Shown one piece after another: positions 1 to 55,242 of a DNA stretch of 64,000 nt; position 1 is the first letter of the stretch; every line of letters begins with the position of its first letter. The notes beneath the pieces are model-generated. The model worked only from the letters and a program-made list of their open reading frames with translations. It did no database searches and was not told the DNA's origin. The position numbers were made by a program, and so were the translations under genes. The stretch is taken from NCBI GenBank assembly GCA_002841375.1, contig PGZO01000007.1:124001-188000 (forward strand). Direction: 5' to 3'. This stretch comes from Firmicutes bacterium HGW-Firmicutes-7. GTDB lineage: Bacteria; Bacillota; Clostridia; Lachnospirales; Vallitaleaceae.

Positions 1-1077
1 CCACTTCATAAATTCAATAGGTAATTGATTGTTTTGATCTACAATAAGATCCTCTGCGCTGGCCTTCGTAATGCTATCAAACTTTCTCACAAAAAACACC
101 CAGCTTTCTGAAAAAGGCGGTCGTGCTACTACAACTCTTGAACCATCTTTCATTTCATTAACCTTATACCCATTGCTTTCTGAAAGCTGTCCTGGATTGT
201 TAAATCTGTAAATATTCTTGCATACCCTAACCAGCTCATTTTCACTTTTAAACGATAAAAATGACAAATGGATTGTTTTACCTTTCAGGAAAATCCATAC
301 GGAGTCATAACTAAAAGGGAGTTCTTTAACAATATTTAACCCACTTGCAAAGTCTACTTCTTCATGAAAGGTAGGTGGGATTCCTGACACACCACCAGAC
401 ACGCCATCGATCTTCATATCCCTTATTTCATCTATAACACCATATCCTTTATAAACTTGATATATACGTTGTACAATAATTGAAACTTTGTCTTCAAAGG
501 CTGTAATCTTCTTTACCTTTTGGGAATAAAGCATTTCAATATCTTGTTTATTAATAAAATAGGCAAAAGCATCTTCTACTTCTCTTTGTTTATCAAGCCC
601 ATTATCAATGATCAATCTTTCTAGTGCGTTATAATAATACTTTTTTTTATACACTAACAATAAAATTTCAAATTTATCTTGTATACTCAACGCTCTAGCG
701 TTATCAAAATCAATAATTCTATTAATGTTATCTTCATTGATGCCATAAAGATTCACTAGTATATCCCTAATAAAGCTCTTAATATAATTTTTTGAATTAA
801 CATCCCCATAACTACAAGTTTTTAATGCTTTTCTAAGTTGTGCTCTGTTTTTCATTCTCTTCTCAAACTCTTCTTTTGACAGATTCATTTCATGAAGGTT
901 TGTTTTTAAAATATCATTAAACTTGTTCTTAATAAAATCAATAAGTTGATCCATACAATATTTATCTTCTTCTATTTCATAATCCCTCATTCCCTTTGAT
1001 TGACCTTTTACTATTATTATTATAAAGATGCTTGTCCCAATAAAAATCATTCCAAGCATAACGCTATTCATTACCAT
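1..1077 (-). CDS. CpaF/TadA-like secretion ATPase, N-terminal part (cut by window edge)
   Basis: The frame is open from an ATG at 1077 to the left edge (359 codons), so the C-terminal half with the Walker motifs lies outside the window. The first 25 residues form one hydrophobic segment. A helical region follows, then a segment containing an MKIDG/SGGVSGIPP stretch that resembles the N-terminal domains of type II/IV secretion ATPases of the CpaF/VirB11 family. A GAGGTGAT ribosome site lies 5 bases before the start, and the stop of the preceding ParA-like gene is one base upstream, so it belongs to the same operon. A membrane segment on a CpaF-type ATPase is unusual. The family call rests on context and on general resemblance, because no catalytic motif is visible here. 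Confidence 0.6.
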   Translation of the reverse strand, partial: MVMNSVMLGMIFIGTSIFIIIIVKGQSKGMRDYEIEEDKYCMDQLIDFIKNKFNDILKTNLHEMNLSKEEFEKRMKNRAQLRKALKTCSYGDVNSKNYIKSFIRDILVNLYGINEDNINRIIDFDNARALSIQDKFEILLLVYKKKYYYNALERLIIDNGLDKQREVEDAFAYFINKQDIEMLYSQKVKKITAFEDKVSIIVQRIYQVYKGYGVIDEIRDMKIDGVSGGVSGIPPTFHEEVDFASGLNIVKELPFSYDSVWIFLKGKTIHLSFLSFKSENELVRVCKNIYRFNNPGQLSESNGYKVNEMKDGSRVVVARPPFSESWVFFVRKFDSITKASAEDLIVDQNNQLPIEFMKW

Positions 1078-1078
1078 A

Positions 1079-1888
1079 TTAATCACCTCTTTTTGAATCT
1101 ATATCTAATTGATTAAATAAGCTTATGACACTTTTTCTAACTTCATTGATAAACGTATAATATAGATCATTCTTTTCTGCACGTATGTTTTTTACAAAAA
1201 AATCAATTGCCTTGCCATCATTACAGGCATCTGCAAAGGCTCTGCAATAAGGAATACATCCAATATTATCTTTAACCTTATACCTTCTTTGTAGATTCCT
1301 TATACCTAAGCTTGAACTTTCATCATACATGGATATTAAAAACATGCATTTATGTAAGAATTTTGGGTAATCTTTCTTAAAAAAATCCTCTAATATGTTT
1401 ATATTCTGATTCAAATTAATAACAATGATATCTGAATTATCCAATATCTTCTGATTTATCTCGCTATCACCTGCCGGTACATCAACAATCAACAAATCAT
1501 ATTGACGCTTAATTGCGTTCAAAATTGTTACAATCATATTGTTAAAATCACTTAAATAAAGCGCTTTATTCGTATTTTTTGTTCCAACCAAAAGATCTAA
1601 TCGTCCTTTAAGCAACGTAGTTGTATAGCTTAAAATACGCTCGTTATCTAATGTACTAAATTTAACTAATCTACTTAGTGCATCAATTCCATTATCCTTT
1701 AACTCCGTTAAGCCTGTATTTAGAAATAGCTTATCTACCATGGAGGCTTCCAATGTTGACTTTTCAAAGTGACTATGCGTAATCAAGGTTTTCATTTTAT
1801 ATTCAAGGGCAATTGCACAAGCAATAGCTACAGAATTAGTCGTTGTTGTTGTCTGTCCATGCACCGTACTCCAAAAGGCTATTTGCAT
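1079..1888 (-). CDS. ParA/MinD-like (CpaE-type) protein with altered P-loop
   Basis: 269 residues. The N-terminus has the layout of a ParA/MinD/CpaE ATPase, but the deviant Walker A reads VHGQTTTTTN, with Gln where the catalytic Lys of GKT is expected. The YDLLIVDVPAG stretch near residues 129-139 matches the Walker B/switch region. In Tad systems CpaE-type proteins help to localise the machine at the membrane. The start overlaps the previous gene by 10 bases, which suggests translational coupling. The frame is intact, so the altered P-loop is a property of the protein and not a frameshift. ATP binding may be weak or absent; this is inference. Confidence 0.65.
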   Translation of the reverse strand: MQIAFWSTVHGQTTTTTNSVAIACAIALEYKMKTLITHSHFEKSTLEASMVDKLFLNTGLTELKDNGIDALSRLVKFSTLDNERILSYTTTLLKGRLDLLVGTKNTNKALYLSDFNNMIVTILNAIKRQYDLLIVDVPAGDSEINQKILDNSDIIVINLNQNINILEDFFKKDYPKFLHKCMFLISMYDESSSLGIRNLQRRYKVKDNIGCIPYCRAFADACNDGKAIDFFVKNIRAEKNDLYYTFINEVRKSVISLFNQLDIDSKRGD

Positions 1889-2565
1889 GCTTTCGCCCCC
1901 TCCACTGCCTTGATCACCTTCATTACTTTCCCAAATTCAATGCCATATAATTCTTCAATAATATCTGCAAACATCTCTTTATATTTCCTTGATAGCTTTT
2001 TAAAAGAAAAAACTTCATCATACTGACATAATAGCTTGCACTTGTAATCCTCCTGTGTACGTTCGAATTCATATTCTGCCAGCACCTTTGTACGTACATC
2101 AATATTTAGAATATGATTAATATAATTCTTATTAATTTTAGTGTCTATAACATCTCGATAAACTTTAACCACGTTCATGTTATTGTTCAAGAAGTTGTTA
2201 AGACTCTTCTTTAAGGAAAGTATATTATGTCTTTCATAATCAGTAACTATAAAAACAATTGAATACTCCATATCTATTCGTTCAGACACATGAAGTCCAT
2301 GATCAACCAGGGCAATATCGTAGCCTTTCATATTGACTGCCTTACTTAATTCCACTTTTTCTTCTGAATAAGAGATACAGTCGACCCCAAAATATGTAAA
2401 TAAGTCGCTATCAGCTAGTGTTGGTAACGTTGTTTTTAATAACTGCTCTTCGCTTGCATCTATAAGTATTACTTCTTTATTTAATGCTTTTAGTATACGA
2501 GATAAATAATGTATCATATCAACTTTATACGAACCTACAAACCCCAGTTTAATAAAAGGATCCAT
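1879..2565 (-). CDS. ParA-like protein lacking a Walker A motif
   Basis: 228 residues. It begins KLGFVGSYKVDMIHYLSRIL followed by KEVILIDAS, the strand-loop-helix-strand order of a SIMIBI/ParA fold, but no glycine-rich GKT loop is present. A later YDIALVDHG segment sits where Walker B is expected. It probably acts as a structural or regulatory partner of the next ParA-like protein. It overlaps the SAF-domain gene by 17 bases upstream and the next gene by 10 bases downstream, so these genes form one tightly packed operon. The family is inferred from fold-like pattern and context and no specific name is recognised. Confidence 0.5.
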   Translation of the reverse strand: MDPFIKLGFVGSYKVDMIHYLSRILKALNKEVILIDASEEQLLKTTLPTLADSDLFTYFGVDCISYSEEKVELSKAVNMKGYDIALVDHGLHVSERIDMEYSIVFIVTDYERHNILSLKKSLNNFLNNNMNVVKVYRDVIDTKINKNYINHILNIDVRTKVLAEYEFERTQEDYKCKLLCQYDEVFSFKKLSRKYKEMFADIIEELYGIEFGKVMKVIKAVEGAKACK

Positions 2566-3514
2566 TTATATCTTCCTCCTTTATTTCATTTGGTTCTTCA
2601 CCGCTTACGCTCCCTTCAGGTGTTACATCATTTATAGTGGTTGTCTCATGGCTTAAGGTTTCTTGCTCCTTATTAATTTTATTTTCTCTATTAGTTGCTT
2701 CTTCTTTGACCCCACTTTCCACACTATATCCTGCTTCAACACTAACTTTTGCTAACCGCTCCTCTAACTGTAGCCTTGCCTCCTGAGTTAAACTTTCTTT
2801 AGCCTCCTGGATTATATTCGGATTGCTTATTATAACTTTAAGTACGTCTAAATTTACTGGATAATTAAGTATTGCTTTATCTTGAATAGAAGGTGCAACA
2901 TAGGTTACCGTGTATAGCTTTGCGCCCTTATGTAAATATGCATCAACTATTGCACTACTTAAGGTAAGTATCTCTTTTTCATCCACCCATAGCCAAAATG
3001 TATTCGTTGCCAACTGAATATCTCGAACCTTTTTCTTGCTTAAAACTATATAATCTTCTCCACTGGGAAACCCAATTCTCACGTCAATATAATTGTCTTT
3101 TCTAAGATTGCTCGGTAATAATAGCATGTTTAGTTCTTCTTCCCTCAAATCCTTAGAAATTATTTCTTCGTGTACCATTGCCTTCATTAATGGTATCCCC
3201 TGTTCTAAGTCCACCAAAAGCACTTTACCATAATCTTCACTTGTCACATATTGATCTTGAAGCGTACTTGCACTAATTTCATCTTCATAAAAAAGCTCGG
3301 GCTTCAATACAGTTCCTGCTGGTAGCCTTTCGTTCCCCATAAGTACAATTCTATTTAAACTGTATTTCATTGTATTAATCTCCGTAACATATTGCGAAAG
3401 TTGTATTTTATAGACTACGTATCCTGCTGCTCCTATTATTCCTATCAATAGTACGAATGTTAAAACAGTCCTTACAGCCTTAGACATCTTTAGTTTTTTC
3501 TTTCCAAATGCCAT
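2549..3514 (-). CDS. CpaB/RcpC-like SAF-domain membrane protein
   Basis: 321 residues. A lysine-rich start is followed by a single transmembrane helix at about residues 14-35. Then comes a SAF-type domain (about 55-125) with the typical 'RLPAGTVLKPELF' and 'GKVLLVDLEQGIPL' pattern of CpaB/RcpC assembly proteins. The C-terminal 60 residues are Glu/Thr-rich, charged and probably disordered. CpaB proteins act in Flp pilus assembly on the outer face of the membrane. A strong GGAGGAGAG ribosome site precedes the ATG. The gene lies 27 bases after the kinase-ParA gene and overlaps the following ParA-like gene. Confidence 0.65.
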   Translation of the reverse strand: MAFGKKKLKMSKAVRTVLTFVLLIGIIGAAGYVVYKIQLSQYVTEINTMKYSLNRIVLMGNERLPAGTVLKPELFYEDEISASTLQDQYVTSEDYGKVLLVDLEQGIPLMKAMVHEEIISKDLREEELNMLLLPSNLRKDNYIDVRIGFPSGEDYIVLSKKKVRDIQLATNTFWLWVDEKEILTLSSAIVDAYLHKGAKLYTVTYVAPSIQDKAILNYPVNLDVLKVIISNPNIIQEAKESLTQEARLQLEERLAKVSVEAGYSVESGVKEEATNRENKINKEQETLSHETTTINDVTPEGSVSGEEPNEIKEEDINGSFY

Positions 3515-3541
3515 ATCTCTCCTCCTGATAAAATATTCTTC

Positions 3542-4984
3542 TTAGGTTTTTAATAATTGTTCAAATATCTTTTTGATTTCTTGGTTAGGCATAAAAGGAT
3601 TCATATTATACGATAAGTGAAAGGTCTTACTATTTGTTAATTTCTTTATCTCCTTAATTGACTTCTTGTCCATTAAAGGCAACAAATAACACCAGTTGTT
3701 GTTTGGATCGTATTCTCGTGTTCTACTATAAAAGTCTTTTATTTCCTTAACCTTCCAATCCATTCCTTGTCCAATAACAAGCCTGATATCTGATCGAATA
3801 AATTCATCTAGTTCCCCTAATTCTTGATATGAACCTAAATCTATAATAATAAAATCATACTGATCTCTATATTTAGTAAGAAATTTCCAATAATCAATAT
3901 CCCAGTAATAGTGGATTCTATTATAAATAAAGTTCTTTTTTACCATAGTCTTTTCATCCCTTGTAACAAGCCCAATTTCTTTAAAATGCTTTGAATCATT
4001 TAATTCTATTAAAGCGACTTTTCCTTTTTTACATAAAATAGCTGCAAGCATGATACTTGTATGTGTGACGCCCACGCCCTTATTAACCCCCAAAACACCA
4101 ATTGTTGCTGTCTTTTTAACATCTATGTTACTAGCTTCATTCTCACTATTTGTATTGGTTAGAATGGAAAGATTTATATTATCATGTTTTTTAACAGCTC
4201 CTTCCTCACAATTATTCAATGTTAATAAAGAATTTTCGAGCTCCCTTATACTTTGATACCTTTGATTCGGTAAAATTTCGCAGCATTTTAAAACTATCTC
4301 GAATAGTCCATTCGCTAATTCTGTATTAAGTTGTTCTGTCCATTGAATTTTATAAGGTGGGTGAGAAAGATTTTTACTTGTAAGTAAAAAGTATAATGTG
4401 ATTCCTAGAGAAAAAATATCCGTACGTTCATCGCTCTGTCCAATTCCATACTGTTCTGGAGCTGCATAGCCCTTTGTACCAATCGGCATTGTGTCATTTT
4501 GGCTTTCTTCTTTATACTCCCTAGCTATCCCAAAATCTATTAGCTTAATCATGCCATTATCCATTAACATAATATTTTCTGGCTTCACATCTCTGTAAAT
4601 AATTGGATGTGGTTTTCTTTGGTGTAAATAATTCAGTACATCACACAACTGAAATGCCCATTTTACAATCTGCTTCGTTTCTATTTCGGTACACTGTGTT
4701 TTATAGTCTTTCAAATTAATACCTTGCACGTATTCCTCAATGATATAAATAGCTTGGTCATCTTCTTCAATATCAATTATTTTTGGTATGGCTATATGAT
4801 CTAAATGCTTTAATATATTAGGCTCTGCAAGAAGATTAATACTATGATTTTCTTTTCTCGCCTTTTTAATTGCCCACTTATTTCCAACTTTAATATTTTC
4901 TGCAAGATAGACTTCACTTGTACCTCCATGACCAAGTGGTTCTATTACTTTAAATTTGTCAAAATACACCCTCCCGGTTTCCAT
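3542..4984 (-). CDS. Ser/Thr protein kinase fused to a ParA/CpaE-like domain
   Basis: 480 residues. An N-terminal PknB-type kinase domain (about 8-255) shows the glycine loop LGHGGTSEVYLA, the Lys of WAIKKA, the catalytic loop YRDVKPENIM (YRD instead of HRD), DFG and AAPE. After a linker, residues from about 290 on form a ParA/MinD-like domain whose P-loop NKGVGVTHTS has Val at the usual Lys position; YDFIIIDLG is the Walker B region. There is no transmembrane helix. It is the first gene of the left Tad-like operon, behind a clear promoter at 5039-5067. The kinase appears catalytically complete, while the ParA part may only bind partners. Substrates are unknown; the operon's own SAF and ParA proteins, or the FHA protein at 49176-50525, are candidates. 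Confidence 0.8.
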   Translation of the reverse strand: METGRVYFDKFKVIEPLGHGGTSEVYLAENIKVGNKWAIKKARKENHSINLLAEPNILKHLDHIAIPKIIDIEEDDQAIYIIEEYVQGINLKDYKTQCTEIETKQIVKWAFQLCDVLNYLHQRKPHPIIYRDVKPENIMLMDNGMIKLIDFGIAREYKEESQNDTMPIGTKGYAAPEQYGIGQSDERTDIFSLGITLYFLLTSKNLSHPPYKIQWTEQLNTELANGLFEIVLKCCEILPNQRYQSIRELENSLLTLNNCEEGAVKKHDNINLSILTNTNSENEASNIDVKKTATIGVLGVNKGVGVTHTSIMLAAILCKKGKVALIELNDSKHFKEIGLVTRDEKTMVKKNFIYNRIHYYWDIDYWKFLTKYRDQYDFIIIDLGSYQELGELDEFIRSDIRLVIGQGMDWKVKEIKDFYSRTREYDPNNNWCYLLPLMDKKSIKEIKKLTNSKTFHLSYNMNPFMPNQEIKKIFEQLLKT

Positions 4985-5038: not shown

Positions 5039-5067
5039 ATTATATACAATTATTTTACCTTTTTCAA
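5039..5067 (-). promoter_or_regulatory. Sigma-A-type promoter of the kinase-ParA operon
   Basis: On the minus strand, TTGAAA (5067-5062) and TATAAT (5044-5039) are separated by exactly 17 bases. The start would fall near 5032, about 48 bases before the kinase ATG at 4984, which is preceded by AAAAGGGGGG. Confidence 0.7.
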
Positions 5068-5276: not shown

Positions 5277-6455
5277 TTACTCTGTTGTTTCTTCTGGTAT
5301 TTCTGGCGTTTCTGGTATTTCTGGCGTTTCTGGCGTTTCTGGCGTTTCTGGCGTTTCTGGCGTTTCTGGCGTTTCTGGCGTTTCTTCATTCGCTTTATCA
5401 CCAGGTTTTGTTGCACCGGTCACTTCAAACGCATTCCAAGCCGCTTCGTCTACAACGATGTTGTACTCCTCTTTCCAGCGTTCAATCTGCTCTTGAAAAG
5501 CAGCTTCCTTTTGTTTGCTTTTTGCATATTGAATAACTTCGTCTTCTATATCTTTTCTTGCTTGAATTTGCTCTGCTGTTGGTGCACCTACAGCCTTTTC
5601 TATCTTAATAATATGATAGCCATACAGCGTTTCAACAAGTCCACTAATTTCACCTGTTTCCATTGCAAAGGCCGCTTCTTCAAATTCTTTAGTCATTACG
5701 CCTTTTGTAAAAGTGTACTCACCTTGTGCCGCTAATGAACCCGTATCTTCTGAATATTCTGCTACTAAACTCGCAAAATCTTCATTTGCTTTTGCTCTTG
5801 CAAGTGCTTCTTCTGCCCTAGTTTTTGCAGCAGCAAGTCCAGCTTCATCTAAAGAGGTTCCTGCATCATCAATCGTCTTAATTAATATATGCTTCACTGT
5901 AACAACGTCTGCTTCTACGCCATATTCAGCAATTGAAGCATATTGAGGGTCTTGCAAAGCAACAATAGCTAAATCATTCTCCAATAGTAGCTCATCTATT
6001 TCTGTATCAGGTATTGCTACATCAATTAACTTTTCTAAATATTTATACTTTACAGAAATTTTCTCTAAAGTTTCCAACGTAAACCCTGCCTTTTTAGCTA
6101 TGCTCGGATCTAATCCTTCAAAATAAGTTTTGACAGTAGCTTTTGCTTCTGCAATTTCTTCTTCTGTTAATACAATCTCTTTTTCTTTGGCAACATAAAC
6201 TGCTAAATTAATAGTTGTTAGTGTATCTAATACTTGTTCTTTAATATAATCCCCAACTGTACCTTCACCATATGGGTTTTGTTCACTCATGCCTTCAACA
6301 CCAATTTGTGATTCCATACTAAACACAAAAAAGTTCGCCTCGTCTATAGTAACCTTTTCTCCTTCAATTTCAATAATTGTTTTTTCTGTTGAACAACCTA
6401 CAAACATTGTAACCACTAGCATTGATATCATCATTAATATGATTATTTTCTTCAT
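5277..6455 (-). CDS. PrsA/SurA-like peptidyl-prolyl isomerase lipoprotein
   Basis: 392 residues. The signal peptide ends in a lipobox (FVGC), so it is predicted to be a lipoprotein on the outer face of the membrane. A SurA/PrsA-type helical N-terminal region (about 30-165) is followed by a parvulin rotamase domain (about 180-290) with [18 protein letters not shown] and [11 protein letters not shown]. It would assist folding of exported proteins. The last 35 residues are ETP/EIP repeats, unusual for PrsA and possibly a spacer in the cell wall. The gene is monocistronic, with a terminator directly downstream. It may serve the large surface proteins encoded nearby (inference). Confidence 0.85.
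5292..5385 (-). repeat. 9-base tandem repeat encoding the ETP tail
   Basis: About ten copies of the 9-mer TCTGGCGTT (plus strand) with two TCTGGTATT variants. They keep the frame and encode Glu-Thr-Pro or Glu-Ile-Pro units at the end of the PrsA-like protein. Slippage would change tail length in whole-codon steps. Confidence 0.9.
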
Positions 6456-48358: not shown

Positions 48359-49159
48359 CTAGTTAAGCCAATCCCCTACTAGCTCTTCAAAAGAACTACT
48401 AATAACTCTGGCATCGGAAATATCAGGCTTTAATATCGTATTATCTCTATTAATACGTGCTAAATTAAAATCTATTTCAACCTCTATTTCTTCCAAGCCT
48501 AATACGCCAACGATTTTCCTAATCTCAAGCCCTTCATCAATAAAAATCTTCATTTTTATATCTTGAACTTTATTACCCAAGTTACTTAACGAATTGTCTA
48601 CTCCTAATTCATGTATAATTACTTTTTTATCTAAGCTGAAGGAATAGCAATCAGCAAATATATTAATTGGATACGCTGTGTTTTGATTGATCCGAGTCGT
48701 TATATTTCTTTCCACCTCAACTTGCTCCACGTTCAATATACTTAACAGCGCCTCCTTATTCATAATAATCTTATCTGTTGCCTGTTGCTTATTAATTATC
48801 AGCTTGTTAAATCCATCAATAGGTGTGCTTACACATCTTACTGTTTCATCTTCAAAGTAATTAAAAACTAAAATATCATTCATATCTTGTAAGCTATTCA
48901 CTTTAAACTCAATTTCTTTTAAATGCTCAGTAACAGCCCCCGTCATATTAACTTGAAAAATTTCAGACTTACTTTCATCCTTACTGCTTAGTTTGATACT
49001 TCCATAAAAATTAAACCCTTTTCCCCCAAAGGTATGTTCTATTGCTGTCATAATCTTTTCTTCATCCGACATTACCCTTGCTAATAACGGTTGCCTACAT
49101 AAAAACATCATTCCTATAAAAATCAAGCCAATAAAAACAAATATTAGGTTTTCCTTCAT
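48359..49159 (-). CDS. Membrane-anchored protein of the Tad-like operon, unknown function
   Basis: 266 residues. A single N-terminal hydrophobic helix (LIFVFIGLIFIGMMFLC), then a soluble beta-rich domain with no recognised motif. The pattern of alternating strands is loosely like the lipoprotein at 45384-46352, but the two are not obviously homologous. It is the last gene of the Tad-like operon, 16 bases after the FHA gene, with a terminator directly after it. It may be an assembly or surface component; this is inference. Confidence 0.55.
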   Translation of the reverse strand: MKENLIFVFIGLIFIGMMFLCRQPLLARVMSDEEKIMTAIEHTFGGKGFNFYGSIKLSSKDESKSEIFQVNMTGAVTEHLKEIEFKVNSLQDMNDILVFNYFEDETVRCVSTPIDGFNKLIINKQQATDKIIMNKEALLSILNVEQVEVERNITTRINQNTAYPINIFADCYSFSLDKKVIIHELGVDNSLSNLGNKVQDIKMKIFIDEGLEIRKIVGVLGLEEIEVEIDFNLARINRDNTILKPDISDARVISSSFEELVGDWLN

Positions 49160-49175
49160 GATGTGCTCCTTTCAC

Positions 49176-50525
49176 TCAACATAACTTAAAATAATACTTC
49201 TCATCTATGATATTGATTTCATCTGTGTTTTTCAGAAGGTATTTCGCTTGTCCCTCCAGTTTTGTATTATTTAAAAAAGTACCTTCCTTTGAGTTTAAGT
49301 CTGTAATATAATAATTTTCTTCCTCATATGTTATTTGGCAATGTATTCTACTAACTCGTTCATTTTTAATTTGATAATCTACTACACCCTTCATTTTACC
49401 GATAATAAATGGCGTATTTAGTAATGGAATATTTACTTCACATTCATCAACCCAATACGCTCTTTTTTGGGTGATCATAGGTTCAGATAGATTATTAATA
49501 GGACGCTCCCATTGCCACTTCACACGATTCGATTCTTTCTTGACTTTTTTAGGTAAATTTTTTTTTGCTTTTTCTTTTTTATCTAGCTTAATCATTCCCT
49601 TCATATTTTTCTCCTTAGTAATCATAGTTGTTGTTTCATTAGTCACTCGTTTCTTTTGAAATAATACCTTAAAAAAAATGATCACTTCACAGATACTTAC
49701 TACGCCAATAATGACTATTACTTTAATTAATCTACTCGAATGACTTTCAGCCACACCAAACAATTTAGCTGAACACAAGTATAGCGCAGCACCAATAAAA
49801 ACTTGTAAAACGATAAACATCATTTTAGAATCCTTCGCTACCTGATTTTGCTTGGCTGCTGACTGATGTTTTGTTTTTGTTACAGGTTGTTCGTTATCGT
49901 AAGCGCCAATTATATCCATCTGCATAAGAGGCTCAACAAATTGAATATTATCCTCATATTTAATTACTTCCTTTAATATCAAAATATTAAAACTGTTTTC
50001 TTCTAAAACCATACGAAACTTATGTACGAGACTTATAGCTCTTTCATCATTTTTATGAACACGCTTTATTAATCTATCTACTAATGATTTAAGTATGTTA
50101 AAATTATTACTTTCGTTCTCGTTTTTGCAGGGCACATACACGTAGAAACACTTGTTTTTCTCAGTATCGACGAATATGAAATTTCCATCAAGTTGAAAGT
50201 TCGCCTCATTAAGAAAAAATTCATGGGCAGAGGAGATTGTATCTATTAACGTTTCAATAATATTCCTAAGCAACTCATAGCCAATACTATTTTCTTTTAT
50301 ATAATCAAATAAGGATGTTTTTTCTCCTATTGAAAAAAGCACCAAACTATCACCATCATTATTCTTTGTATGCACCTCAAGTATATTCGGTACCACATTG
50401 TTTTGTAACATTTTCACTTGATAGTCTTCTACTTGCCCTTCTCCAACCCTTAATACCAAATAACAACTACTTAAATCTCGTTCTATTTCCCATTCGTAAA
50501 GTTTATACTCAATATTTTTCATCAT
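49176..50525 (-). CDS. FHA-domain protein with DUF6382-like N-terminus
   Basis: 449 residues. An N-terminal domain (about 1-190) resembles DUF6382, found ahead of FHA domains in Firmicutes Tad loci. Two transmembrane helices follow (about 225-245 and 255-280), a basic linker, then a C-terminal FHA domain (about 375-449) with FIIGKMKGVVDYQIKNERVSRIHCQI and YYITDLNSKEGTFLNN. FHA domains bind phospho-threonine, so it could read a kinase such as the one at 3542-4984. It overlaps the prepilin stop by 4 bases. Confidence 0.85.
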   Translation of the reverse strand: MMKNIEYKLYEWEIERDLSSCYLVLRVGEGQVEDYQVKMLQNNVVPNILEVHTKNNDGDSLVLFSIGEKTSLFDYIKENSIGYELLRNIIETLIDTISSAHEFFLNEANFQLDGNFIFVDTEKNKCFYVYVPCKNENESNNFNILKSLVDRLIKRVHKNDERAISLVHKFRMVLEENSFNILILKEVIKYEDNIQFVEPLMQMDIIGAYDNEQPVTKTKHQSAAKQNQVAKDSKMMFIVLQVFIGAALYLCSAKLFGVAESHSSRLIKVIVIIGVVSICEVIIFFKVLFQKKRVTNETTTMITKEKNMKGMIKLDKKEKAKKNLPKKVKKESNRVKWQWERPINNLSEPMITQKRAYWVDECEVNIPLLNTPFIIGKMKGVVDYQIKNERVSRIHCQITYEEENYYITDLNSKEGTFLNNTKLEGQAKYLLKNTDEINIIDEKYYFKLC

Positions 50526-50686
50526 ATGCCAAGTACTTTTGTATCTATTTGGTTAAATATATTATTAATAAGCTCCTCAATTTGGGTTTTAAATATAAGG
50601 GCTAACGCAATAATTATTACGATAATAATTGCAATTTCTATGATCCCCATTCCCCTTTCGTCCTTCCACAAATTCTTTAATAGCAT
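50522..50686 (-). CDS. Flp/TadE-type prepilin, 54 residues
   Basis: MLLKNLWKDERG is a short charged leader; then MGIIEIAIIIVIIIALALIF is a long hydrophobic helix. Cleavage after RG would place Glu at position +5, the rule for class IV (Flp) prepilins. The ribosome site GGGAGGA lies 14 bases after the TadC stop, and the stop codon overlaps the FHA start (ATGATGA). The length is normal for Flp-type pilins. It is too short for most ORF lists but is well supported by motif and context. Confidence 0.85.
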   Translation of the reverse strand: MLLKNLWKDERGMGIIEIAIIIVIIIALALIFKTQIEELINNIFNQIDTKVLGI

Positions 50687-50700
50687 TTATCTTCCTCCCA

Positions 50701-52197
50701 TTAAAATTTCAATGTAATTATGGCGGGCGTTATAACAATAATAAGTATTGCCATAAACATAATGCCCATAGGAAGCACCAGCTTGGTGCTTGCCTTCTCC
50801 CCTTTCTTTCTAGCCAAATCCTCCCGCATTGACATTGCTTCCTTCGATTGTTGTTGCATAGCTCCGATCAACAAGTGACTCCCCTTTTTTATGTTTTGCA
50901 TAATGATAGCCGTAAACCTTAAGATCTCTGGTATTTTACACCTGTGACCAAACGATTCGTATGCCTTAAGTTCAGAAACCCCTTTTTTTAAATCCTCAAG
51001 TGTCATCAACATTTCTTCATATAATAGAATTGATTCACCACTTCGTTCTTTAATTCTTAAATAATCTTTTGTAATTTTTTCCCACGCTCTCCCAAAGGTC
51101 AAACCCGCGTTCATCAACAATGCAAATTTATTAATACATCCTGGAAAAGCTCGAAGCAGCTCTTCTTCACGTTTTTTTACGCTAGTTTTTAATTCATACC
51201 TCTTTAACAAGAAAAATATATAAGAGATGCATAGTCCAATCAAAATTATTGATAAACTCCCGACTTTCTTCTCACCATCGTACCATTTAGCTACCGCGTC
51301 ATAATCACTAAAACTCTGAGGTAAGATAACTTTGTTATTTTTAACATTTGATAATGCTTGCTTTGATAATAACTCCTTAATACGCTCCGCTAGCTGTTGT
51401 TTTTTAATCTCCGTACTTAAAGATTTCTTATATAAGTTGATTGTATATTGAACAAGCTTTTTTTCTCCATAACAATCTATTGTTGCCTTTAAAGTAACAG
51501 TTTCACCTTCCTTATTCAAATTATTATATCTAATCTCTCCATTATTAAGTAATAACTTATCGTTACTGCTCTCCCATCTAATTGCTACTTTTTCCGATAA
51601 CATGATGGGCAAAAATAACGGTTGATTAACATGTTGAAGAGATAGGTTGTTTTGTAGTATTAGTTCTGGTAACTCATGAATTATTTTATCGAGCTCATCT
51701 TTTATTTGTAGTTTTGTTGGGCTTTTTTCTGGAACAACAATAGTAAATGGTTCATATGTAATTGCATGCTCTTTATTTTTTTTATCTTCCACCTCTAATT
51801 CATAAAAATAATGATAATATGAATCACCCTCTCCAAATTCTGATTTTTCAATTTCAGATACATCTTTAACAGTAAGACTCTTGATGTTTAAGCACATAAC
51901 AACGAGTAGTGTTCCAAAGAACAGTAACAATGCCAACGTTATACGCTCCCCTTCAAAAAGTCTATAACGAACTGCATACGCTCGCTTCCCATATAATTGT
52001 AATAGATCATAATTGGGCTTTTCCGAAAAAAATCCTCCTAGTCTATCTAATACAAATAACCCCAATGGCAAATATCTCCAAAACGGATACTCTTTTTTAG
52101 AAACACTTAACATTTCATATTTATATCGTTTTTTTGAGTAGGTATATAGCCAAGCAAAACCTATTAAGCTTATCCCTATTATAATTGTCCAAGCCAT
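50701..52197 (-). CDS. TadC-like T2SSF protein with inserted Ig-like segment
   Basis: 498 residues. N-terminal transmembrane helices (about 1-20 and 88-105). Then a region of about 200 residues (about 120-300) with AIRWESSNDKLLLNNGEIRYNN and VTLKATIDCYGEKKLVQYTINLY, which resembles the atrophied bacterial Ig-like fold. The usual T2SSF domain follows (about 340-498) with FPGCINKFALLMNAGLTFGRAW. TadC is the inner-membrane platform protein of Flp assembly. An extracellular-type domain inside it is unusual. It lies 3 bases from tadB. Confidence 0.8.
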   Translation of the reverse strand: MAWTIIIGISLIGFAWLYTYSKKRYKYEMLSVSKKEYPFWRYLPLGLFVLDRLGGFFSEKPNYDLLQLYGKRAYAVRYRLFEGERITLALLLFFGTLLVVMCLNIKSLTVKDVSEIEKSEFGEGDSYYHYFYELEVEDKKNKEHAITYEPFTIVVPEKSPTKLQIKDELDKIIHELPELILQNNLSLQHVNQPLFLPIMLSEKVAIRWESSNDKLLLNNGEIRYNNLNKEGETVTLKATIDCYGEKKLVQYTINLYKKSLSTEIKKQQLAERIKELLSKQALSNVKNNKVILPQSFSDYDAVAKWYDGEKKVGSLSIILIGLCISYIFFLLKRYELKTSVKKREEELLRAFPGCINKFALLMNAGLTFGRAWEKITKDYLRIKERSGESILLYEEMLMTLEDLKKGVSELKAYESFGHRCKIPEILRFTAIIMQNIKKGSHLLIGAMQQQSKEAMSMREDLARKKGEKASTKLVLPMGIMFMAILIIVITPAIITLKF

Positions 52198-52200
52198 TAC

Positions 52201-52941
52201 TTACACCTCAATTTCTACAACTTTTTTACTGACAATAAAACTAACCAGATATAACATAAGTGCAACTGTCATAGCAATTCTACCCCTTAGAGAATGATAC
52301 ATGACCTCTAAAAATTCTGAAGAAAATACATGCAAATAAAGTATAATAAAGGGAACTAAAAAGGCTAAAATTTTTTGTTCATATTTCTTTCCAGTAATTA
52401 AAACATTAATATTTTCCATGATCTCAATTTTCTCATTTATAGTTGTTGTTGTGTACTTCATGATCTCTACAAGATTACCCCCTGTCCTCTTCGCAGTTAT
52501 AAAAACATTTGTAAAGTTGGTGATATCTTCGTCTTCCGCTCTAAGTGCAAAATCTAATAGTGCACTTTCAATAGAATCATTCATCGAAACTTTTCTCACT
52601 ATATACGTAAACTCTTCTATTATGTATGTATCTTCCTCGTAATATATAATCTTCAAATCATTCAGTGCTTCAACAAAAGCCAGCTCCACACTCTTTCCTA
52701 CACTTATCGATGAGGACAACGCATACAACCCTTCTTTAAACTGTTTTTTAAGTCTTTTCTTCCTTTCGCTTATGAGAATCTTCTTTTGATAAGGTATGTA
52801 TAAGATTCCAATAAAACTAAACGGTAATGCAATCATTAATTGTCCATAAAAAAGCATTGCCAACAAAAAAAATCCACCGATACCCATAGCACCATATTTA
52901 ATCTTTTCAAAGTTACTCAACCAATATATGTTATAGTTCAC
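52201..52941 (-). CDS. tadB: TadB-like T2SSF membrane platform protein
   Basis: 246 residues starting with GTG at 52941, 8 bases after the AAGGAGG that lies inside the end of cpaF; a TTG at 52947 is a weaker choice. Two N-terminal helices, a T2SSF cytoplasmic domain (about 70-190) with LKKQFKEGLYALSSSISVGKSVELAFVEAL and FTNVFITAKRTGGNLVEIM, and two C-terminal helices. It forms the platform with TadC that works with CpaF. Confidence 0.85.
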   Translation of the reverse strand: MNYNIYWLSNFEKIKYGAMGIGGFFLLAMLFYGQLMIALPFSFIGILYIPYQKKILISERKKRLKKQFKEGLYALSSSISVGKSVELAFVEALNDLKIIYYEEDTYIIEEFTYIVRKVSMNDSIESALLDFALRAEDEDITNFTNVFITAKRTGGNLVEIMKYTTTTINEKIEIMENINVLITGKKYEQKILAFLVPFIILYLHVFSSEFLEVMYHSLRGRIAMTVALMLYLVSFIVSKKVVEIEV

Positions 52942-52943
52942 AG

Positions 52944-54158
52944 TCAAGACCTCCTTAAAATAAGCTTTTGATTATGAATAAGTTTATTTTTAGTAGCATT
53001 TAAACTTCCACTAACGATATCTCCAATTGAATTTGAATCCTCTTCATAAACAAACAGTGGATTTAAAAGAATCTCTCCATTTTCAATTGCTACGAGCTCT
53101 GTAATTTCTAATACCTTTCTCGTCTTATCTCTCATCCTTCCTAAATGAACCATTAGATCAATCGAAGAAACAATTTGCTTTCTTATGGCTTCAAGCGGAA
53201 AATTTTCTTTAGATAAGATCATTGTTTCTAGACGACTTAGCATGTCTTTTGTAGAATTGGCATGCCCTGTGGAAAGAGACCCATCGTGACCTGTATTCAT
53301 TGCTTGAAGCATATCTAAAGCTTCTACACCTCTTACTTCACCAACAATAATCCTATCTGGTCGCATCCGTAAGGAGGTTCTAATCAAATCTGAAATAGTT
53401 ATAGCACCTTTTCCTTCTAAGTTTGGATTACGTGTCTCTAGACTCACTACATTTTTAACTTGATTAATTTGTAGCTCTGCTGAATCTTCAATTGTAATTA
53501 TTCGTTCATCATTTGGAATATAATTTGATAGGATATTGAGAAGGGTTGTTTTGCCTGATCCTGTTCCACCGCTAATAAAAATATTGTACTTAGCCTTAAT
53601 CGCCTGTTGCAAAAAGTTGGCTGCATCATTTGAAATGGCCTTCCATCCAATTAGTTGATCCATATTTATTGTTTTTTTTGAAAACTTTCTAATTGTTAAG
53701 ATTGGACCGTTTAGAGCAATTGGTGGTAAAACTACATTTATTCTCGAACCATCGTCTAACCTAGCATCACAAATAGGTGTCGATTCGTTTACAACTCTAT
53801 TCATTTTAGATACGATACTTTGAACAACATCTTCTAGCCTTTCTAAAGTTTCAAATCGGACATCAGATTGAATGAGTCTGCCCTCTTTTTCTATAAAAAT
53901 CAAATCTTTCCCATTAACCATAATCTCTGTAACACTGTCGTCAACAATAAATGCTTGTAGCACATCTAATCTTCTTAATGCATTAAATAGCTGGTGCGAG
54001 AGGGCTACTTTTGCATTTGTTTCAATGTAAGCTTCTCTGGACTTAGATAATATTGCTTCATCGATAATGTCAATAATTTCTTCATCTTTTAGCTCTCTTG
54101 CTAAGTCAAGTTGACCTCTTACTTGAGCTTTAACTTCTTCTACTATTCTCTCATCCAT
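52944..54158 (-). CDS. cpaF: CpaF/TadA secretion ATPase
   Basis: 404 residues. Walker A is ISGGTGSGKTTLLN; the Walker-B-like part and Asp/His boxes are RIITIEDSAELQI, RMRPDRIIVGEVRGVEALDMLQAMNTGHDGSLSTGHANS. It is a typical VirB11-like hexameric ATPase that powers Flp-type pilin assembly. It overlaps cpaE by 8 bases. Unlike the truncated gene at 1-1077, it has no N-terminal membrane segment. Confidence 0.93.
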   Translation of the reverse strand: MDERIVEEVKAQVRGQLDLARELKDEEIIDIIDEAILSKSREAYIETNAKVALSHQLFNALRRLDVLQAFIVDDSVTEIMVNGKDLIFIEKEGRLIQSDVRFETLERLEDVVQSIVSKMNRVVNESTPICDARLDDGSRINVVLPPIALNGPILTIRKFSKKTINMDQLIGWKAISNDAANFLQQAIKAKYNIFISGGTGSGKTTLLNILSNYIPNDERIITIEDSAELQINQVKNVVSLETRNPNLEGKGAITISDLIRTSLRMRPDRIIVGEVRGVEALDMLQAMNTGHDGSLSTGHANSTKDMLSRLETMILSKENFPLEAIRKQIVSSIDLMVHLGRMRDKTRKVLEITELVAIENGEILLNPLFVYEEDSNSIGDIVSGSLNATKNKLIHNQKLILRRS

Positions 54159-55242
54159 CCATACTGATCACCTTTCCTAATTTTCTAATACCCTCACCAA
54201 AACCGTTATCTAAATCAATCGTTATTCTATCATCCTTTTGAACTAATAATTTTTCTATATAGGGTATTTCACATACAACCAACTTATCCTCCTGCTTATT
54301 CATTTCTACTTCTTTTATCGGTTTTGCTGCATTTCTTACCATGATGATGTTTTCATCATTAAACTCTATGCGCCCACCTCTTTTAAACAGTGCTTCAAGC
54401 TTTTCATTACTAGCAAAGTTATAATTTGTTATAATAAGCTTCTTATGACACTTCTCCATAAGCAAATCATTTCTTTTGGAGTACTCACTTGTAAAATCAA
54501 TAATGATGTACTGATATTCTTTAGCATTTAATAAATAATCCATTAAATAAATCCAATCCTCCTCCGCTACACCAATCATATCCTCTTTGTAAATTGGTGG
54601 AGGAATGTAACTCATACCTGTTATACGATCTGTTTTTTTAATTCCTTCTAGCTTCATAAGTAAATTCTCAGTTCTCTTACTAATATGGTAAAGTAAATCA
54701 GACATGCTACTACTAAAATTCATTTCTAGCATCTTACTATAAGACGGAATCTCTTCTAGGCTTAAAAAGAGTGTTTTATAGCCTTGCAGCGCCAACGTAT
54801 TTGCAAGTGCTAAGGAAATGGTTGTTTTTCCGCTACCACCAATGGGTGAATAAACACAAATCAATTCTGTTGTAGTATTAGCCGTTGCGCTAACAAGTTC
54901 TTTACTGCATAAGGACGTATAGTATGCGACTATTTCATCTACAATTAAGTGACCCTGCTGATACTTATTTATCTTTGGCATTTGAAGTAGCGAAGTACTA
55001 ATTAAATGATCTACAAGCAAAATTGTAACCTCAATTAATGGCTTCTTCGTCATCTTAATATATAATTTTTCACTTATTAATAAAATATCAATTGGATTAT
55101 TTTTTAGAAATTTCAGAAGGTTTGATTCAGTAGATAAAACATGGACAGAAAAATGATGGATGTTATACGTTAATAGATAGCTAGCTAGTTTATGTACATA
55201 CCCTTGATCCCATTCGCAAATGGCGACCTCTAAATTAAGCAT
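54151..55242 (-). CDS. cpaE: CpaE-like ATPase of the Tad-like operon
   Basis: 363 residues. The N-terminus (about 1-110) looks like a degenerate receiver domain (VAICEWDQGYVHKLASYLL). The MinD-like part from about 128 has a canonical P-loop VYSPIGGSGKTTISLALANTL and YQYIIIDFTSEYSKRN. It likely positions the machine. It is the first gene of the right Tad-like operon. Its start lies 21 bases from AAAGGGGG, with a short coupled reading frame between (see findings). Confidence 0.85.
   Translation of the reverse strand: MLNLEVAICEWDQGYVHKLASYLLTYNIHHFSVHVLSTESNLLKFLKNNPIDILLISEKLYIKMTKKPLIEVTILLVDHLISTSLLQMPKINKYQQGHLIVDEIVAYYTSLCSKELVSATANTTTELICVYSPIGGSGKTTISLALANTLALQGYKTLFLSLEEIPSYSKMLEMNFSSSMSDLLYHISKRTENLLMKLEGIKKTDRITGMSYIPPPIYKEDMIGVAEEDWIYLMDYLLNAKEYQYIIIDFTSEYSKRNDLLMEKCHKKLIITNYNFASNEKLEALFKRGGRIEFNDENIIMVRNAAKPIKEVEMNKQEDKLVVCEIPYIEKLLVQKDDRITIDLDNGFGEGIRKLGKVISMDG

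Follow-up and report, generated by a model that had tools for sequence, protein, structure and literature searches.

TadZ/CpaE, a ParA protein with an atypical Walker A motif, is a known component of Tad systems, in which it has a positioning role (PMC6668835). Flp-less tad-like loci of Gram-positive bacteria are known as well (PMC3244431), and the available text of PMC11217815 describes kinases of type VII secretion systems (T7SS). Here, we describe, using profile searches, AlphaFold models, trees and dN/dS estimates, an operon headed by a Ser/Thr kinase that is fused to a degenerate ParA domain. For a kinase fused to a TadZ-like ParA no description was found in the open-access literature searched.

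The operon was analysed from the window, that is, the whole stretch of 64,000 nucleotides at G000:C55:124001-188000 in a genome of 4.08 Mb. Positions 1-4984 (minus strand) hold the head of a ten-gene operon, the remainder of which lies to the left of the window, and the gene order is kinase-ParA, CpaB-like protein, ParA0, ParAQ, CpaF, a 670-residue putative platform protein and four small single-TM proteins. All genes are on one strand, and neighbours overlap by 4-17 bases or are separated by gaps of less than 30 bases. The five open reading frames listed in the first-pass annotation of this DNA (kinase-ParA, SAF/CpaB, two ParA-like proteins and the start of CpaF) are all present, and the features are as follows.

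3542..4984 (-): kinase-ParA fusion of 480 residues, the operon head gene, without TM helix
4190..4984 (-): Hanks-type Ser/Thr kinase domain, residues 1-265; Pfam Pkinase 5.8e-47, dN/dS 0.11
4118..4189 (-): fast-changing linker, residues 266-289; dN/dS about 1
3545..4117 (-): degenerate ParA domain, residues 290-480; KGVGVTH, Val306 at the Lys position, Walker-B Asp382 kept
2549..3514 (-): CpaB/RcpC-like protein; N-terminal TM helix, weak SAF-like segment
1879..2565 (-): ParA0, a ParA-fold protein (predicted structure) without any P-loop
1079..1888 (-): ParAQ, the second degenerate ParA; Thr15 at the Lys position, Gln12 at the second Gly, His10 at the signature Lys
1..1086 (-): CpaF/TadA motor ATPase, N-terminal 362 residues; whole gene G000:C55:123200-125086
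5039..5067 (-): top-scoring sigma-70-like promoter match (11/12), 55 nt upstream of the kinase start; such sites occur at chance-level number in the region

A gene for a PrsA/SurA-like lipoprotein (window 5277-6455, minus strand), which has a tail of PETPE repeats at its C-terminus, adjoins the operon.

The proposal that these genes open a Tad-like operon is borne out by the left flank, which, far from being devoid of secretion genes, holds the rest of CpaF, platform-like and pilin-like proteins. The genes after CpaF encode the 670-residue multi-TM protein, pilin-like proteins of 154 and 123 residues, and two proteins of 175 and 319 residues with an N-terminal TM helix. What had been noted as a CpaF-like start with a membrane helix belongs to a full motor of 628 residues, with a TM helix at residues 8-26 and the Walker A motif GSQGTGKTT. 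Its family profile matches the solved Caulobacter CpaF with E=4.8e-13, and the Walker A motif, the Walker-B GE and the HH pair show no variation across 13 relatives, so that a TadA/CpaF motor ATPase with intact catalytic sites is present. The Pfam T2SSE match of CpaF alone is weak (18 bits), which marks a diverged subfamily that has a TM helix at the N-terminus and is longer by about 260 residues. The CpaB-like protein has one TM helix and only a weak FlgA/SAF match (E=0.01-0.02), and its gene is kept in nearly all loci. The 670-residue protein occupies the place of TadB-TadC. It gave no Pfam, PDB, T2SSF or clear TadB/TadC profile match (best E=0.005 at 7% probability for TadB, none for TadC), and a comparison of its two halves gave no match and thus no internal duplication; in L132, L133 and L144, however, its homologue is split into two genes. 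We call it a putative platform on the basis of its position, its topology and this split form.

In the pilin-like proteins, roughly 7-10 residues precede the TM helix and a prepilin leader is absent. No prepilin peptidase is found among the operon genes, A24 peptidases being encoded on other contigs only, so the operon contains neither a Flp pilin with leader nor a TadV peptidase and the label Flp-less applies. As known from its genes, the operon is a Flp-less Tad-like machine, a class that has been described: the Flp-less tad-like operons of Gram-positives likewise combine a Tad ATPase with TadZ/RcpC homologues and do without Flp pilin or prepilin signal (PMC3244431). The likeness is drawn at class level, and the word "kinase" is absent from the text of that paper. 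In several genera (L116, L091, L066, L042), large DUF5704 proteins (1037-1248 residues) are encoded within the operon or downstream of it; they may serve the machine as a surface substrate or form its tip.

The kinase domain of the head gene appears fully equipped for catalysis. The beta3 Lys, alphaC Glu, YRD, DFG and APE are all present, and the catalytic residues (beta3 Lys, alphaC Glu, catalytic Asp, Lys, Asn, DFG and APE Glu) are intact in 36/36 related kinase proteins, all of which show the VAIK Lys, catalytic Asp and DFG that define Hanks kinases. The Hanks kinase domain is shared with the PASTA kinases PrkC/PknB, from which kinase-ParA differs in that it has no TM helix and no PASTA domain and, at 174 bits, falls short of the equivalog cut-off of 450. 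One other Hanks kinase was found in the genome (two in all), and it adjoins the only PP2C_2 phosphatase found. An earlier suggestion, that the machine is controlled by phosphorylation, gains plausibility from the intact catalytic residues of the kinase, while the control itself is something we infer. Viral contigs yielded no kinase-ParA.

The C-terminal domain of the fusion is of ParA fold, as in TadZ/CpaE, according to both a profile match to ParA/FleN (E=7.5e-7) and an AlphaFold model (pLDDT 92) with ParA/MinD as best folds. Its P-loop reads KGVGVTH, with Val306 in place of Lys. The Walker-A lysine occurs in 0/58 relatives, the position being T, V, A, S or C, and most of these relatives have T-H after it; the Walker-B Asp is retained in 59/59 of the family. 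The deviant Walker A with catalytic lysine that characterizes ParA partition ATPases is hence missing from the family (0/58). ParA0 gave no useful match in sequence searches, and its AlphaFold model (pLDDT 82), without a P-loop, matches ParF, FleN and MinD in structure with E about 1e-6. ParAQ had been annotated with Gln in place of the P-loop Lys; the lysine is indeed absent, but alignment with the ParA structure 8ray puts Thr15 at its position and Gln12, three positions off, at the second Gly. That all three ParA folds are altered holds in this species and not further out, as canonical P-loops occur elsewhere: several loci of gut Clostridia retain TGKT in ParAQ, and in some Paenibacillus/Cohnella the head slot is taken by a receiver-ParA with canonical KGGVGKTT. 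The loci L137 and L140-L144 (gut Clostridia with TGKT ParAQ) carry extra pilin-like genes, and no kinase or receiver-ParA is present just before CpaB. The retention of the ParA part over long evolution without its ATP-binding lysine bears on the question of what atypical TadZ proteins do.

How does the fusion compare with TadZ/CpaE (PF21194 TadZ-like_ARD plus ParA)? Both are two-domain proteins with a regulatory N-terminus and a ParA domain, both are encoded with CpaF and CpaB, and the atypical Walker A described for TadZ (PMC6668835) is a shared trait. In contrast to the pseudo-receiver N-terminus of TadZ/CpaE, the fusion in the window has an intact Ser/Thr kinase and no receiver-like domain. 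Kinase-ParA further differs in that the Walker-A lysine is absent throughout, in its G-x-G-x-T-H motif, and in being accompanied by two or more further ParA-fold genes. In L055-L058, L043, L061, L076, L107 and L135, a receiver-like-ParA of the same ParA family replaces kinase-ParA; these receivers were read by eye, and PF21194 gave no match to the receiver-like domains of the sister proteins scanned. We read the fusion as TadZ-like, with a kinase for the input domain, because the sister operons have a receiver-like domain at that place, as in TadZ/CpaE, and in our view this factor brings a kinase to the machine by docking. In other loci, a ParA of the same type comes after kinase-ParA as a separate protein. 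Mapped on the CpaF tree, the kinase label has to change 9 times, and well-supported branches force at least 6 of these changes; the tree of the ParA domain forces only 1. The 449-residue proteins of L055-L058 were also considered as EssB-type pseudokinases; this was rejected, as the ParA domain is the common part and the N-terminus reads as a receiver.

The same gene order is found in most genomes of the family, along with the degenerate ParA sites, and both extend to Paenibacillus; the order also recurs, as had been proposed for checking, in other Clostridia. The ParA family of the fusion, counted with or without kinase, is present in 37/398 sampled Bacillota genomes and 26/267 genera. Kinase-headed loci are found in Alkaliphilus serpentinus and in Paenibacillus glacialis, macquariensis, antarcticus, cellulositrophicus and lutrae.

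The genome has further Tad genes. A second Tad cluster (window 48359-55242, minus strand) encodes a TadZ receiver-ParA, a canonical CpaF, two T2SSF-like platform proteins, a DUF6382-FHA protein (49176-50525) with the only FHA domain found in the genome, and a 266-residue protein. Its TadZ is of standard form, with a Pfam TadZ receiver domain (E=1e-8) and a canonical GGSGKTT ParA. One of the T2SSF-like proteins has an Ig-like insert. Another Tad-type locus, at G000:C28:134086-150921, encodes a T2SSE ATPase, a prepilin peptidase and a protein that matches the fusion's ParA family more weakly.

The explanation that we find best, and consider rather probable, is a Flp-less Tad-like machine with kinase-ParA as a factor of TadZ/CpaE type and with control by the kinase. 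The machine, of pilus or secretion type, would belong to the type IV filament superfamily and comprise one working motor (CpaF), a putative multi-TM platform, CpaB and pilin-like TM proteins. The usual N-terminal pseudo-receiver would have been exchanged, presumably in this direction, for an active-looking Ser/Thr kinase on a lysine-less ParA module that keeps the Walker-B Asp and the G-x-G-x-T-H motif. This ParA part could dock at the base of the machine on the cytoplasmic side, where it might pair with the two other ParA-fold proteins, and docking would hold the kinase beside its substrates. Candidate substrates are CpaF, in its soluble N-terminal region, a part of CpaB and a partner ParA. 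Phosphorylation of such a part may then gate assembly or motor activity. More tentatively, and with somewhat less than an even chance in our estimate, control could be modular: the input domain would be swapped between pseudo-receiver and active kinase on a lysine-less TadZ-type ParA, and the docked kinase would switch the machine directly, without an FHA relay or a ParA ATP cycle, via three or four pseudo-ParA subunits. A kinase in the TadZ slot offers a direct and testable handle on the switching of Gram-positive Tad-like machines.

Several other readings deserve attention. Three altered sites together in one operon might be taken as local decay of a dying operon, yet we give this next to no credence: the comparison with a sister species indicates purifying selection on every operon gene (dN/dS 0.04-0.20, rough values as dS is high), the lysine is absent in 58/58 relatives, and the kinase and motor sites are intact. 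By the same rough measure, the ParA part of the fusion has a dN/dS of 0.13 and the linker one of about 1, and identity to the sister species is 29% in the linker against 84% and 79% in the two fusion domains. The simplest account is an old loss of the P-loop sites in some branches, maintained ever since. ParA-fold proteins are common localization factors, and the ParA part might serve only as an anchor or localization tag for a kinase whose targets lie outside the machine, for example among cell-wall or division proteins; as one of only two Hanks kinases found in the genome, kinase-ParA may have wider duties. Such a role is unlikely given that, in distant genera, the kinase has kept its place as head gene of this single operon. 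ParA-family polymers exist too, and the first-pass annotation had taken the three ParA folds with altered nucleotide sites as pointing to a structural or regulatory polymer on the membrane. This found no support and seems to us quite improbable, since kinase-ParA and both other ParA proteins lack TM helices, neither sequences nor models give evidence of polymerization, and TadZ, the atypical ParA known from Tad systems, acts in positioning (PMC6668835). There is a slim chance, finally, of a T6SS-like phosphothreonine relay, in which kinase-ParA would phosphorylate a target for recognition by the FHA protein that the second Tad cluster encodes about 45 kb from the operon. As a general mechanism this relay is excluded by eight kinase-ParA genomes (G001, G004, G005, G008-G012) without an FHA match, two of which (G005 and G011) are single-contig.

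The operon could also be an accessory of a T7SS. EssC is encoded beside it in L055-L058, L043, L074 and L091, which fits the Tad-linked T7SS types in the available text of PMC11217815, where T7SSg/h adjoin Tad genes and T7SSf has an ATPase with a TadZ receiver; the receiver-ParA beside FHA-EssC in L055-L058 looks like the T7SSf protein TsfV, a TadZ-like receiver joined to an ATPase. For the operon studied here, we regard an accessory role as very improbable, as the window genome has no WXG100 match and no EssC (the best match, of FtsK size, scored 111 bits where the cut-off is 778), and most kinase-headed genomes of the family are alike in this. Unless a diverged T7SS was missed, these absences rule out a T7SS in the window genome, and the available text on T7SSf-h describes no kinase-ParA fusion. 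Because this genome is without a T7SS and eight kinase-bearing relatives are without an FHA domain, neither is required. Among the loci with EssC beside the operon, L074 and L091 carry WXG100 genes as well, and L074 also a YukD-like gene.

In Paenibacillus and Cohnella (L089-L122), near-identical copies of the operon are found in different species, beside genes for a partition-type ParA and a ParB-like protein, which suggests that a mobile element carries the machine in these genera.
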